64,000 nt of DNA from the NCBI GenBank assembly GCA_029264355.1, contig JARIBW010000010.1, positions 1-64,000 on the forward strand, read 5' to 3'. The translations under genes and the position numbers were made by a program. This document shows positions 19,392 to 25,556 of this stretch, one piece after another (the first letter of the stretch is position 1; the number at the start of each line of letters is the position of its first letter). The DNA is from Collinsella sp. Its GTDB lineage: Bacteria > Actinomycetota > Coriobacteriia > Coriobacteriales > Coriobacteriaceae. The notes under the pieces were generated by a model. That model saw only the letters and a list, made by a program, of their open reading frames with translations. It was not told the origin of the DNA and did not search any database.

Positions 19392-19861
19392 TTAGAAGAA
19401 CGTCGCCACCACGATGTCGTCATGGAGGTGCTCGCCCATGTACGCTTGGTTCTCGAGCATCTTGTTCATGGTCCTGACGCCGAACCGGGCGCCTCGGGTC
19501 GTGCGCAGCCCCTGGGCGTTGAGCTCGTCGTATACCTCCTGCATGGTCTTGCCATCGGCATCCTCGGCGAACATTCTCTGCGCGAACGGAGCCGTATTCT
19601 CGTCTACGACGTGCTTTTTCGTTCCCCTGCCCCTGCCCATGCCGCACCCGAACCCTTGTACCCGTTGAACATGGCGTTCTGGGTGTTGTAGTCCATCCCC
19701 CGCAGTATGTTCTGGGAGAGCTGGTGGCTGTAGCGCTCGGCTATGGCGTCCATCAGTCCCTCGATGAGGATGCCTTCGGGTCCCTCTATCGGGATGCTCT
19801 CCGCTAATAAGTGTATTCCGCACCCCGTGTTGCGGATTTCCTTCTTCGCCGGCGCTGGCAC
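19392..19861 (-). pseudogene. serine recombinase fragment, frameshifted and lacking its catalytic domain
   Basis: Two minus-strand frames together encode the middle of a large serine recombinase: ESIPIEGPEGILIEGLMDAIAERYSHQLSQNILRGM, then after a frameshift near 19640-19660, TMQEVYDELNAQGLRTTRG and MNKMLENQAYMGEHL. The same segments in the intact recombinase at 23794 read MAEYYSANLSQNIRRGM and SKMLRSDRYIGTYVWGE, so the two are related but different. The catalytic serine region is absent and the zinc-ribbon end is missing. This is the relic of an earlier or second integrated element. Confidence 0.8.
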
Positions 19862-20932: not shown

Positions 20933-21592
20933 ATGGGACTTCCAGAAAATATCGACGCGCTGCTTGTTAAGCACGACATTACTCAAGAGGCCCTCGCGCG
21001 AATTGCAGGCGTAACTCCCGGTTCGGTAACTGGCTGGCGTAAGGGTGCGCGACCGCGTAAAGAAGCAATAGCTAGGCTGTGTGAGTATTTCAATATTACT
21101 GAAGATGATTTGATTTCTGATCATTATGGTCTCGCCGCCACGGAGCACGGTCGGGTCCCCTCCGGCGCAAAGCTCCCCTCCGAGCCCCGCCCCGCCTACG
21201 CCCCGCTGCTCGGCCGCGTTCATGCGGGCGAGGCCTGCGAGCCCGACATCATCGACGGCCGCATCCCCATACCCTACGAGGTTCGTTCGGCCCACCCCGA
21301 CGGCTACTTCCTCGAGGTCGAGGGCACGTGCATGAGCCGCGTCTACCCCGAGGGGTGCCACATCTACATCGACCCGCGCCAGCAGCCTCGCAACGGCTCG
21401 GTCGCGGTGGTCTCCATCGACGGCGCGGACTACGTGATGCGCCGCCTGTATAACACGGGGCGCACCGTCGTGCTGTCCCCGGACTCGTGGGACGACTGCT
21501 ACGAGGACATAGTCATAACGGGGGAGGACGAACGCACGGTGGAGTACGTCGGCACCGTGGTCTGGTTCCAGCCCGCGGAGGAGATGGAGTAG
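20933..21592 (+). CDS. CI/LexA-like repressor with an S24-type C-terminal domain lacking the usual catalytic residues
   Basis: This 219-residue protein has an XRE helix-turn-helix (ITQEALARIAGVTPGSVTGWRKG, residues 16-38) and an S24 peptidase-like C-terminus. A possible Ala98-Gly99 cleavage site occurs in VHAGEA. The normal nucleophile motif GDSM reads GTCM (Cys133), and the usual lysine position (V-K-R) reads VMRR (Met169), so self-cleavage is probably lost or altered. The first 200 bases are AT-rich and the rest is very GC-rich, which suggests a mosaic gene. AGGAG precedes the ATG. It probably controls the island, perhaps without SOS induction. Confidence 0.8.
   Translation: MGLPENIDALLVKHDITQEALARIAGVTPGSVTGWRKGARPRKEAIARLCEYFNITEDDLISDHYGLAATEHGRVPSGAKLPSEPRPAYAPLLGRVHAGEACEPDIIDGRIPIPYEVRSAHPDGYFLEVEGTCMSRVYPEGCHIYIDPRQQPRNGSVAVVSIDGADYVMRRLYNTGRTVVLSPDSWDDCYEDIVITGEDERTVEYVGTVVWFQPAEEME
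21551..21592. repeat. repressor 3' end, duplicated 654 bases downstream
   Basis: The last 42 bases encode GTVVWFQPAEEME and the stop. They match 22205-22246 at 38 of 42 positions, including a TAG-to-CAG change that removes the stop. Confidence 0.85.
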
Positions 21593-21618
21593 GAGGGGCG
21601 CCGAAGGGGTGATTGTCT

Positions 21619-22134
21619 ATGGACCTTCAGGGAGTGGTGCAGGCGGTCGTTATCGCCGGCGGGACGGTCATAGTCTCCTCCGTCGTATCGGTCATCTCGG
21701 GCGCGAGTTGGAGGCTGTCTGCCAGGCGCGACCTCGAGCTGCATGATGACCTTGCCGCCCATGCGCGTTGCGATGAGGAGCGCGAGGTGGCCGAGGCGAT
21801 GCGCAGAAGGGCCTTTGAGAGGGCGAGGCGCGGTGCGACGCGCAAGAACAGGGTGCTGAGCGCGCTCGGGTCGGCTTTCGGCTTCGCGCCAGCGACCATG
21901 ATCGGTCTGGCGATCTCGGGCTTCTATATCCTTATCGACCCCGATGGCTTCGGTTCCCCCAAGAGCATCCTCGCGATCATGGGGGTCGCCATCTCAATCG
22001 ACGCCGCCTGCCATGCCGCCCAGTGGGCGCTAGACAAAAAGGCTGAACGGGAAAACAGTCCAGCCGAGAAGGATGTGAGCCGCGAGCGACAGGAGGAAGT
22101 AAGCATACGGGTAGATGATCAGGAATCGAGTTAA
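21619..22134 (+). CDS. small membrane protein of unknown function
   Basis: This 171-residue protein has a hydrophobic N-terminal helix (about 7-28), a long charged segment rich in Arg and Glu (about 34-80), two more hydrophobic helices (about 88-108 and 113-130), and a charged, Glu-rich tail. The ATG at 21619 is nine bases after AAGGGG. I recognise no family. It lies between the two copies of the repressor 3' end, so it may be cargo inserted there. Confidence 0.55.
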   Translation: MDLQGVVQAVVIAGGTVIVSSVVSVISGASWRLSARRDLELHDDLAAHARCDEEREVAEAMRRRAFERARRGATRKNRVLSALGSAFGFAPATMIGLAISGFYILIDPDGFGSPKSILAIMGVAISIDAACHAAQWALDKKAERENSPAEKDVSRERQEEVSIRVDDQESS

Positions 22135-22204
22135 GAAGTCGGGCATGGCGGACCCTTTCGGAGTCTTTGGCTGCTGGGGCCACTGTATGAGATGTGTAGC
22201 CAAC

Positions 22205-22246
22205 GGTACCGTGGTTTGGTTCCAACCCGCGGAGGAGATGGAGCAG
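22205..22246. repeat. orphan copy of the repressor 3' end, in the leader of the DUF3800 gene
   Basis: A diverged copy of 21551-21592 that no longer belongs to a gene. It supplies the purine-rich GGAGGAGATGGAGCAGGG just ahead of the DUF3800 start codon. Confidence 0.85.
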
Positions 22247-22250
22247 GGAT

Positions 22251-23018
22251 ATGGGGCGGATAGATTGGCGGAGTTCCGAGCGGTCCCCGCTATTCAGCGG
22301 GTTAGAGTACAACGTTTATTGCGATGAGAGCTGCCACCTCGAGCATGATCGTTTCAAAGCGATGTCTCTCGGCGCTGTTTGGTGTCCCAAAGAGAAGACC
22401 AGGGAGATAAACAGGAGAATAGTCGAGATAAAGGCAGACCACGGGATAAAAAGGGATGCCGAGGTCAAGTGGACTAAGATCTCCCCGTGCAACAGGCAGC
22501 TTTATATGGACATCGTCGATTACTTTTTCGACAATGATGATTTGCATTTCAGGGGGCTCATCATTCCCGACAAGGGAATTCTGAGGCATGACGAGTTCTC
22601 CCAGACGCATGACCAGTGGTATTACAAGATGTACTTCACCATGTTGAAGACGATATTTGAGCGTTCAGCGAGGTACTACGTTTACATCGACATAAAGGAC
22701 TCCCATTCTGGGGAGAACGCCGAGAGGCTTGCCGACGTTTGCGCCAACGATAGATATGATTTCGACCATGAGATCGTTCGGAGAGTTCAGCCCATAAGGT
22801 CTGAGGAAGTACAACTTATGCAAATCGTCGACATCCTGACTGGTGCCCTCACATATAGACACAACCACCCAACCGGCGAAGGCGGTTTCAGTCAGGCCAA
22901 GGTTGACGTGATCAACAGAATCGTCAGGCGTTCGGGAGTGTCGCTGACCAAATCCACATTGCTCTCAGAGAAGAAGATGAACCTGCTTGTCTGGGAGCCG
23001 TACATGGCGGTGAGATGA
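22251..23018 (+). CDS. DUF3800 domain protein
   Basis: This 255-residue protein has the DUF3800 layout: an early strand with YCDES (Asp25, Glu26), AMSLGAVWCP, a conserved EVKW (Glu71, Lys73), a middle YYVYIDIKDS, and a late LMQIVDILTGAL helix with Asp. The spread of acidic residues is like that of RNase H-like nucleases, and the family is common in mobile islands, but its biochemical role is not established. It overlaps the next gene by ATGA, so the two are coupled. Codon use is less GC-biased than that of the core genes, a sign of transfer. The start lies inside DNA derived from a duplicated repressor 3' end. Confidence 0.75.
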   Translation: MGRIDWRSSERSPLFSGLEYNVYCDESCHLEHDRFKAMSLGAVWCPKEKTREINRRIVEIKADHGIKRDAEVKWTKISPCNRQLYMDIVDYFFDNDDLHFRGLIIPDKGILRHDEFSQTHDQWYYKMYFTMLKTIFERSARYYVYIDIKDSHSGENAERLADVCANDRYDFDHEIVRRVQPIRSEEVQLMQIVDILTGALTYRHNHPTGEGGFSQAKVDVINRIVRRSGVSLTKSTLLSEKKMNLLVWEPYMAVR

Positions 23019-23578
23019 TGGAGTGCTGGATTCCCAGGGAGGAAGAACTCCGGCCCGGTGAAGATTGGCAAGATTACGAGCTCCGTCTGTATGACCTGTT
23101 CAAGGCCGATTTCCTCGATAGCAGACCTACGTTCGATGGAATGCCGGTCAGGGTCAGGGTGAATCCCAAGTACGATGAGCGGGAGGAGGCGTTCTGGCAT
23201 CTGACATGCAGGGACTACTCCCACGGTGATGGTTTGCCCGAGTCCCGTGATCCGGATATGGAGAGATGCCGAAGGATAAGATGGCCGCGCGCGTTTATCG
23301 AGAATCACAGGATATGCGCTCTCCACTCCGAGATGGCCGGCGAGTGCCGCGGCGTCATGGTATGGACTGCGGGCCATACCGTTAAGCACGGCCGATCGGT
23401 GCCGAGGGTGAAGCTCTTCCAGGAAGAAGAGTCGTACCTAGTTGTTTTGGAGCCGCGGAGGAAGAAGGGCTATTGCCTGCTGGTTACCGCTTACCACGTC
23501 GAGGAGGAGTGGAGCCGTAGGAAGATCGCGCGGGAGGCGGAGAAGAACGGGGCCCTGTTCTTCGGCCCTTGCGGTTAA
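23015..23578 (+). CDS. small partner of the DUF3800 protein, possibly BECR-fold nuclease-like
   Basis: This 187-residue protein overlaps the DUF3800 gene by four bases. Visible features are AFWHLTCRDY (His62), RCRRIRWPRAFIENH (about 85-97), and a C-terminal strand pair YLVVLEPRRKKGYCLLVTAY (141-160) followed by a charged helix. The order of F-x-H-L-T, R-R-I-x-W and Y-v-v-L...L-x-T-A-Y resembles phage-encoded Barnase/EndoU/colicin/RelE-type RNases, but that is from memory of the pattern, not a search. If correct, the pair could be a toxin-antitoxin or defence module. A strong hairpin ends the unit. Confidence 0.5.
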   Translation: MMECWIPREEELRPGEDWQDYELRLYDLFKADFLDSRPTFDGMPVRVRVNPKYDEREEAFWHLTCRDYSHGDGLPESRDPDMERCRRIRWPRAFIENHRICALHSEMAGECRGVMVWTAGHTVKHGRSVPRVKLFQEEESYLVVLEPRRKKGYCLLVTAYHVEEEWSRRKIAREAEKNGALFFGPCG

Positions 23579-23583
23579 ACGCA

Positions 23584-23607
23584 GGAAGCGCCCGTTCGGG
23601 CGCTTCC
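23584..23607 (+). terminator. hairpin closing the DUF3800 unit
   Basis: GGAAGCGCCC, loop GTTC, GGGCGCTTCC: a perfect ten-pair stem; no strong T run follows. Confidence 0.65.
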
Positions 23608-23793: not shown

Positions 23794-25236
23794 ATGGCAC
23801 AGGCTGCGGCGATATACGCGCGGTTCTCATCTCACAACCAGCGCGAGGAGTCCATAGACGACCAGGTGCGCGTGTGCCGCGCACAGGCGGCCTCGGACGG
23901 CTGCCCGGTGGTCGCGGTGTACGCCGACCACGCGATCAGCGGCACGACCGACAGGCGCCCCGAGTTCCTGCGCATGGTCGCGGACGCGGGCAAGGGCAGG
24001 TTCGACCGCCTCTACGTCTACAAGCTCGATCGCTTCGCCCGCAACCGGTTCGATTCCGCCACGTACCGCGCGAAGCTCCGCAAGGCGGGCGTCGATGTGG
24101 TGAGCGCCTCGGAGCGCGTCCCGGACGGCCCCGAGGGCATCATGCTCGAGTCCGTGCTCGAGGGCATGGCGGAGTACTACAGCGCGAACCTCTCCCAGAA
24201 CATACGGCGCGGCATGGAGGGCAACGCCATGCAGTGCCGGTCGAACGGCGCGCGCTTCTACGGGTACCGCTCCGAGGGCGGCCGATACGTGGTGGACGAG
24301 GACGAGGCGGTGGTGGTGCGTCGCGCGTTCCGCGAGGTCGCGGGCGGCTCGACGGTGTCCGAGGTGTGCCGCGGTCTCAACGCGGACGGGATCAGGACGA
24401 GGCGCGGCAAGGAGTGGCGCGTCGCGACGATGTCGAAGATGCTGCGCAGCGACCGCTACATAGGGACGTACGTGTGGGGCGAAACGGTCGTGCCGGGCGG
24501 CATGCCCGCCATCGTGGACGAGCAGACCGCGCTGAGGGCGAGGGACAACATGGCCAAGAGGGGCGGCTTCCACCGAATCGGCCGGCACTCGTACCCGCTG
24601 GCCGGGCTGCTGCGCTCCTCGAGCGGGCGGGCCATCATCGGCGCGGGCGGCACGTCGGCCACGGGCAGGACCTATTGGTGCTACAGGGACACGGAGACGG
24701 GCGAGCACTGGCCGCAAGACGAGCTCGAGGGGGCGGTCTACGAGGCCGTCGCGGGCGCGCTCTCCGAGCCCGGGGTCGCGGACATCGTCGCCGACCTCGT
24801 GCTCGGCGCCCAGGACGACGCGCTGGCGGAGGAGATGGACGAGGGGACGCTCATCCGCAAGAGGATCGCGTCCATAAAGGTCGAGGAGTCGAACGCGCTC
24901 GACATGGCCATAAAGCTCGGCGCGAGCGACGCACTCGCCGAGAAGGTGCGGGCGCTGGGGGAGGAGAGGGCGCAGCTCGAGAAGAGGCTCGACAGTCTCG
25001 AGCGCAGCGCACCGGTATTCACGCTCGAGCACGTGCTGTTCTGGATTGAGTCGGTGATAGCGTCCCGCGACGTGGCCAGCCTCGTGGCGGCCTTCGTCTC
25101 CAAGATCGTCCTCGACGGTGATTTTGTTCGTGTTGAGTTTCCAATGGTCGAACTACCGCAGGTAGACGGTAGTTCGACCATGTTTCCATTGGTGGAGGCA
25201 CGGAGAATCGAACTCCGGTCCACGAAAGCCCCCTGA
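23794..25236 (+). CDS. large serine recombinase (integrase)
   Basis: This 480-residue site-specific recombinase has an N-terminal resolvase domain (YARFSSHNQ with catalytic Ser12, YKLDRFARNRF, a conserved DGPEGIMLESVLEGMAEYYS helix), a recombinase domain (about 155-265, including GYRSEGGRYVVDEDEA and SKMLRSDRYIGTYVWG), a degenerate zinc-ribbon segment and a coiled coil (about 350-410). The last 15 codons, EARRIELRSTKAP, are translated from the antisense of the tmRNA 3' end, a sign that the gene lies next to its attachment site. The ATG follows AAGGCAAGGA. It is likely to be the integrase of this island. Confidence 0.9.
   Translation: MAQAAAIYARFSSHNQREESIDDQVRVCRAQAASDGCPVVAVYADHAISGTTDRRPEFLRMVADAGKGRFDRLYVYKLDRFARNRFDSATYRAKLRKAGVDVVSASERVPDGPEGIMLESVLEGMAEYYSANLSQNIRRGMEGNAMQCRSNGARFYGYRSEGGRYVVDEDEAVVVRRAFREVAGGSTVSEVCRGLNADGIRTRRGKEWRVATMSKMLRSDRYIGTYVWGETVVPGGMPAIVDEQTALRARDNMAKRGGFHRIGRHSYPLAGLLRSSSGRAIIGAGGTSATGRTYWCYRDTETGEHWPQDELEGAVYEAVAGALSEPGVADIVADLVLGAQDDALAEEMDEGTLIRKRIASIKVEESNALDMAIKLGASDALAEKVRALGEERAQLEKRLDSLERSAPVFTLEHVLFWIESVIASRDVASLVAAFVSKIVLDGDFVRVEFPMVELPQVDGSSTMFPLVEARRIELRSTKAP
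25144..25181. repeat. 15-bp perfect inverted repeat beside the ssrA 3' end
   Basis: ATGGTCGAACTACCG, an eight-base loop, CGGTAGTTCGACCAT, inside the recombinase 3' end and eight bases from the tmRNA CCA. It is flanked by the near-direct repeats GTTTCCAATGG and GTTTCCATTGG. It may be part of the recombination site or a tmRNA terminator stem. Confidence 0.8.
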
Positions 25237-25556
25237 TCGGCATCTCCAAGCTCAGTCGCTCATTTGGTCTCGGACGCCTTGCGCGGAGCGACACGCTCGC
25301 GGCGTCCCAACCGGTTCGATCTTAGCCTTGGCCATACCGATTACGTGCCAAGGAGCGTTCCCCTAAAATGACGTCGCGCCGGTGTCGGGGAAATCACCGG
25401 GTTGACGCGCCGCTATAAACTAAGCAGCGAGAGCCAGCTGGGGCTCAAAAGAAGAATTCTTGTCAATTCATTTTGACAGTACCCCTGTTTAACGTGGCGA
25501 GGAGACCACGGCTTGCTTCCTCTCTCAGGGCTATCGTGTCGAAACCAGTTGCCCCC
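25190..25556 (-). ncRNA. ssrA: transfer-messenger RNA
   Basis: On the minus strand the 5' end GGGGGCAACTGGTTTCGACACG pairs with the 3' TGCCTCC-A-CCA through a seven-pair acceptor stem with one G-U pair. The T arm reads GGAGTTCGATTCTCC. The tag frame ends KNSSFEPQLALAA followed by TAG. The exact resume codon is unclear: an in-frame TGA lies just before Ile-Asp-Lys. tmRNA with SmpB frees stalled ribosomes and marks the nascent chain for proteolysis. The length of 367 bases is normal. The last 47 bases overlap the serine recombinase gene on the other strand. Confidence 0.93.

Follow-up and report, generated by a model that had tools for sequence, protein, structure and literature searches.

A coupled DUF3800 and predicted BECR-type ribonuclease gene pair on a Collinsella island is placed by its sequence in the RlfAB / PDC-M04 module

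Judged by its sequence, a two-gene unit in a Collinsella genome belongs to the RlfAB / PDC-M04 module, which is known but unexplained. The unit occupies positions 22251-23578 of the stretch of DNA that we analyzed (hereafter, the window), which comprises positions 1-64,000 of the forward strand of contig JARIBW010000010.1 from the Collinsella sp. assembly GCA_029264355.1. Its upstream gene, A (22251-23018, + strand; 255 aa), encodes a DUF3800 protein of the RlfA / PDC-M04A family with a predicted RNase HII-like fold. Its downstream gene, B (23015-23578, + strand; 187 aa), encodes a protein of the RlfB / PDC-M04B family, which we predict to be a BECR-fold RNase with His62 and Thr158 as candidate active-site residues.

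The new elements of this work are a probable fold and a candidate active site for RlfB, a pairing of the two genes that proved near-obligate when checked from both the A and the B side, and the recurrent type I restriction-modification (R-M) setting of the module. They connect a hitherto unexplained gene pair of the classical phage P1 with a widespread module and give each gene a testable enzymatic reading. We give a probability of roughly 0.5 to the reading as a whole, namely that RlfAB combines an RNase HII-type protein (A) with a BECR RNase (B) in a coupled conflict effector.

RESULTS

The window pair corresponds to P1 rlfA-rlfB and to PDC-M04

Homologous pairs with the same gene order are found in phage P1 (rlfA-rlfB), phage P7 (rapA-rapB), and Bifidobacterium phage Bbif-1, and the pair is carried by phages, plasmids, islands, and chromosomes. 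As in P1, gene A of the window is followed by an adjacent gene B on the same strand; gene A is 48.5% identical to P1 RlfA, and gene B is about 39% identical to P1 RlfB. In PADLOC-DB, gene A matches PDC-M04A (E 4.2e-87) and gene B matches PDC-M04B (E 1.6e-46), each over nearly its full length. A reading made from the window's letters (the sequence-only reading) had proposed an undescribed system, a claim that falls since the pair is P1 rlfA-rlfB / P7 rapA-rapB, catalogued as PDC-M04.

The literature that we searched contained no functional study of rlfA or rlfB and no mention of PDC-M04 or of an anti-phage test of it; another PDC system, PDC-M63AB, was tested experimentally and showed no defence. 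P1-like rlfAB is present in 121 of 5,426 complete E. coli genomes, almost always on a plasmid. The B gene of Bbif-1 (L003:3947-4471) is unannotated in the public record, and rlfB is likewise unannotated in many P1-like plasmids and is sometimes named “oxidoreductase”.

Genes A and B are inherited as a unit

The two genes are inherited as a unit, their pairing is near-obligate, and the unit is rare. In the window, the stop of A and the start of B share an ATGA overlap (23015-23018, + strand), which likely reflects translational coupling; both this overlap and the two open reading frames, as given in the sequence-only reading, were confirmed. We gathered A relatives from the genomes of bacteria and from viral contigs; the 80 genome loci are the best 80 of 496 relatives and thus stand for the RlfA-like section of DUF3800 and not for the Pfam family as a whole. 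B is the next downstream gene on the same strand in 155 of the 157 A loci with room downstream, and the proposal of a recurring two-gene unit thus survives a neighborhood survey. The sole two loci with room but without a detectable B (L010 and L155) are possibly lone or decayed copies.

After the removal of near-duplicates, the 104 non-redundant A-B pairs showed spacings of mostly -4, -1, +1, or +2 nt, with a spacing of -4 in 37 of them and all values between -16 and +18. No A-B fusion protein was found among the collected loci. The same gene order and tight spacing recur across many phyla, and therefore the architecture is not due to chance.

To avoid the bias of starting from A, 396 genomes of the phylum were searched in two independent runs, one using only B as the query and the other only A. 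Both searches matched the identical four genomes (about 1%), and each B with upstream room has an A in front of it. Within the genus, the pair is present in 3 of 45 genomes. The distance matrices of A and B gave r = 0.78, compared with a permutation-null maximum of 0.24. In one genome of the phylum, G445, the pair occurs twice (L165, L168, L191, and L193), with one copy apparently split by a contig end.

Gene A is predicted to have an RNase HII-like fold

Gene A matches PF12686 in Pfam (E 3e-11; 44.5 bits against a curated cut-off of 21), and Pfam recognized no DNA-binding domain in it. Its structure is predicted with a pLDDT of 92, and a Foldseek search with this model retrieved the RNase HII chain 3p83_D (E 2e-6). 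Structural alignment with another RNase HII, 1eke_A, gave a Z of 13.2 over 169 residues with an rmsd of 3.1 Å. An RNase H fold for DUF3800 has also been reported independently (PMC10910872, PMC12669027).

Four acidic residues do not vary among the 99 members: D25, E26, D147, and D194. Of these, D25 and E26 lie within the search patterns and are thus partly selected by them, while D147 and D194 lie outside the patterns. We infer the equivalence of these residues to the D-E-D-D of RNase HII from their order and from the range of the alignment. Altogether, these results agree with the acidic, RNase H-like character first noticed in the letters of A and suggest that gene A encodes a DUF3800-family nuclease of the RNase HII type, predicted to depend on metal.

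Gene B is predicted to be a BECR-type endoribonuclease

In homology searches with gene B, none of 100 family members has a Pfam match, no sequence relatives were found in the PDB, and gene B alone as a query against the genome contigs returned no related loci. The structural model of gene B, computed from a 100-sequence alignment, has a pLDDT of 90. Its N-terminal part contains a helix (18-35), one strand, a second helix (58-64), and more helices, and its C-terminal part consists of four strands (115-124, 127-136, 141-148, and 153-161) followed by a final helix. Foldseek found nothing significant for this model in the PDB (best E 0.21). In a second look with VIA-align, RelE, HigB, ParE-like, and colicin D/E5 structures made up most of the best 22 chains, with Z values from 5.6 to 3.2, which are too low for a fold match to be relied on by itself.

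Residue conservation points in the same direction. His62, which lies within helix 58-64, is present in 100 of 100 relatives; position 158, in the fourth strand of the sheet, is T in 92 and S in 8 of them; and R84 and R87 are almost invariant in the same alignment. Most of the B sequences were found by way of A, and therefore the search itself did not, for the most part, select for this conservation. A common configuration of BECR enzymes has a His in a helix and a Ser or Thr in strand 4 (PMC5512222), and gene B has this arrangement in His62 and T/S158. With RelE, HigB, and colicins as structural neighbors and this conserved His/Thr-Ser configuration, we consider the BECR assignment, which the sequence-only reading had raised as a possibility, to be quite probable. 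Gene B would then probably be a metal-independent BECR-type endoribonuclease that uses His62 and Thr158. With respect to named families, hhalign of the B profile against PBECR3 (PF18812), whose alignment is thin at two sequences, gave no match, and PBECR4 is absent from 198 genomes of the phylum.

The window copy lies on an island at the tmRNA gene

The end of gatB and the tmRNA gene are about 300 bp apart in a same-genus genome (L170), compared with 5.9 kb in the window, and homology to this island-free genome stops where gatB ends and picks up again at about 25171. Because the gatB-tmRNA homology is interrupted in this way, we place the pair on an island of roughly 5.8 kb at the tmRNA gene (25190-25556, - strand). 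Downstream of B, the island carries a large serine recombinase gene with Resolvase and Recombinase Pfam domains (23794-25236, + strand), whose 3′ end overlaps that of the tmRNA gene. Since the recombinase gene ends inside the tmRNA gene, the tmRNA 3′ end is probably the island site. A remnant of a second serine recombinase, with a Recombinase domain in Pfam (19392-19823, - strand), marks the other end of the island. Third-position GC is 0.67 for A and 0.73 for B, compared with about 0.90-0.93 for the nearby gatA, glmM, and glycosidase genes. Thus, the mobile island beside an integrase and the less GC-biased codon use relative to the core, both noted earlier, are borne out.

The strong hairpin that had been noted after B is also real: it lies at 23584-23607 (+ strand), has a 10-bp stem and a UUCG loop, and scores a z of -6.05 against shuffles. 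The hairpin is a possible transcript end, and its role as a terminator is uncertain because it has no T-run and is not listed by an intrinsic-terminator scan. A canonical terminator after B was considered and rejected on account of the missing T-run.

Upstream of the pair lies a gene for an HTH and Peptidase S24 (LexA/CI-like) repressor (20933-21592, + strand; Pfam). In the nearest relative, from Adlercreutzia hattorii (L008), an S24 repressor, A, B, and a tyrosine integrase stand in a row, with the repressor 12 nt from A. Because the repressor is directly upstream of A in this closest relative, it probably regulates the A-B unit, and a repressor-controlled cassette on a small element therefore looks typical of this branch.

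The window also contains a 173-aa open reading frame (21613-22134) that has likely membrane segments and only weak matches (e.g., PD-Lambda-6, E 0.018). The terminal 3′ sequence of the S24 repressor gene is present twice (21550-21593 and 22204-22247; 44 nt, 91% identical), the second time immediately ahead of gene A, and the two copies bracket this frame, which seems to be a later insertion. A DUF3800-type structured RNA was considered and rejected, with no Rfam match beside the window pair or in 12 related loci.

Type I R-M genes recur around the module

A type I R-M gene lies within 6 kb of the pair in 28 of 65 non-redundant genome loci (about 43%), which is a lower bound because many contigs are short. 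Among these 65 loci, hsdS is directly upstream of A in 13, hsdR directly follows B in 8, and all three hsd genes are present at 14, as confirmed with Pfam; some of the loci without type I genes have type III methylases. Of 198 genomes of the phylum, 74 have HsdR_N, and therefore, as a rough estimate, one would be expected in well under 1% of random 13-kb stretches, a base rate that comes from one phylum and is not a matched control for the 28/65 rate. Unlike part of its relatives, the window copy is not within a type I R-M operon. HsdR_N had no match in the genome of the window copy, and therefore type I R-M is not a requirement of the module.

DISCUSSION

Our preferred reading is that A and B, being translationally coupled, would probably act as one complex. 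Because both are predicted nucleases with invariant candidate sites and are coupled and co-inherited, we favor a complex that relies on the activities of both. In conflict systems, BECR enzymes cleave tRNA, rRNA, or mRNA bound to the ribosome (PMC5512222), and from these targets we infer that B would attack translation. Once triggered, B would cut RNA needed for translation and so act as a growth-blocking RNase, and A would gate, guide, or process for B. The job of the unit would be that of a conflict effector, either in defence or in contests between elements. On phages and small islands, it is found next to a phage-type repressor, and in many chromosomes it has been recruited into type I (in some cases type III) R-M operons, in a PrrC-like position.

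Alternatively, the pair could be a toxin-antitoxin system of the classical type, with B as a RelE/colicin-like RNase toxin that A merely binds and blocks, serving to maintain mobile elements or to abort infection. Such a system would account for the overlapping order of the genes, since antitoxins usually precede toxins, for the resemblance of B to RelE, HigB, and colicin folds, and for the presence of the pair on phages, plasmids, and islands. However, A keeps all of its candidate catalytic residues in 99 of 99 members (D25 and E26 being partly search-selected), which is beyond the need of a pure inhibitor, and it has no DNA-binding domain recognized by Pfam, while B exceeds typical RelE toxins in size. 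We therefore regard this alternative as unlikely.

The setting in P1 raises two further alternatives and also bears on our own reading. P1 rlfA-rlfB is annotated as “possibly associated with lytic replication” and lies next to repL/oriL with a C1-controlled operator. This annotation, the P1 gene names, and the RNase HII-like character of A are consistent with a role in phage nucleic-acid metabolism, in which A would remove RNA from RNA-DNA hybrids and B would process transcripts to favor lytic replication. The lytic C1 operator is unsuited to a resident defence and thus counts against the defence side of our reading, as does the finding by CRISPRi that P1 rlfA and rlfB are both non-essential for plaques (PMC10695390). 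The same dispensability argues against phage metabolism, as do the absence of rlfA-rlfB from some P1-like plasmids (PMC6906374) and the many chromosomal copies beside or inside R-M operons, which together make this role very unlikely. Repressor control in P1, and the repressor gene that adjoins the pair in the window and in A. hattorii, would also fit a unit that serves mobile elements in counter-defence or exclusion and is switched on by induction to disarm the RNA-based immunity of hosts or rivals. The recruitment of the pair into R-M operons of chromosomes looks instead like host-side defence, and we find a counter-defence unit more improbable still.

Returning to the coupled conflict effector, an RNase activity of B under the gating control of A would explain the recruitment of the pair into type I R-M operons, where it would amount to a back-up strategy like that of PrrC but with different components. 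A more specific version is a two-RNase checkpoint, in which the RNase HII-type protein would silence or deliver the BECR RNase. Repeatedly adopted by phages, islands, and R-M operons, such a checkpoint would, in the R-M operons, fire when restriction is inhibited, as a suicide switch that resembles PrrC but consists of unrelated proteins. We offer this version as speculation that is unlikely to hold in full.

Comparison with known systems

The closest counterparts are P1 rlfA-rlfB and P7 rapA-rapB, in which both genes are homologous to those of the window, stand in the same order, and overlap or abut. The P1 copy lies in a lytic replicon under C1 control, whereas the window copy is flanked by an S24 repressor and a serine recombinase, and the window B protein has a longer segment than P1 RlfB around residues 100-130. 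From PDC-M04, a candidate two-gene defence system in PADLOC, the window pair does not differ in sequence, with both proteins fitting the models; the catalogue entry carries no mechanism.

At the level of domains, the DUF3800 proteins of V-A2 and VI-F CRISPR loci share the Pfam domain and the RNase H fold with gene A (PMC10910872, PMC12669027). Unlike those loci, the window pair has no CRISPR array or Cas effector seen beside it, and its partner protein is BECR-like. Gene B resembles BECR RNases such as colicin D, colicin E5, RelE, and PBECR in its predicted helix and four-stranded sheet and in its His/Ser-Thr placement, but it has no detectable sequence similarity to them, carries an extra N-terminal helix and a helical insert, and is paired with an RNase HII-like protein.

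Finally, PrrC is an anticodon nuclease that is kept silent in a type I R-M complex (PMC3874165), and part of the RlfAB family similarly presents a predicted RNase encoded inside type I R-M operons, as in EcoprrI. However, PrrC is an unrelated protein, and the genome of the window copy is without a type I HsdR. The parallel is one of position and logic, not of kinship.
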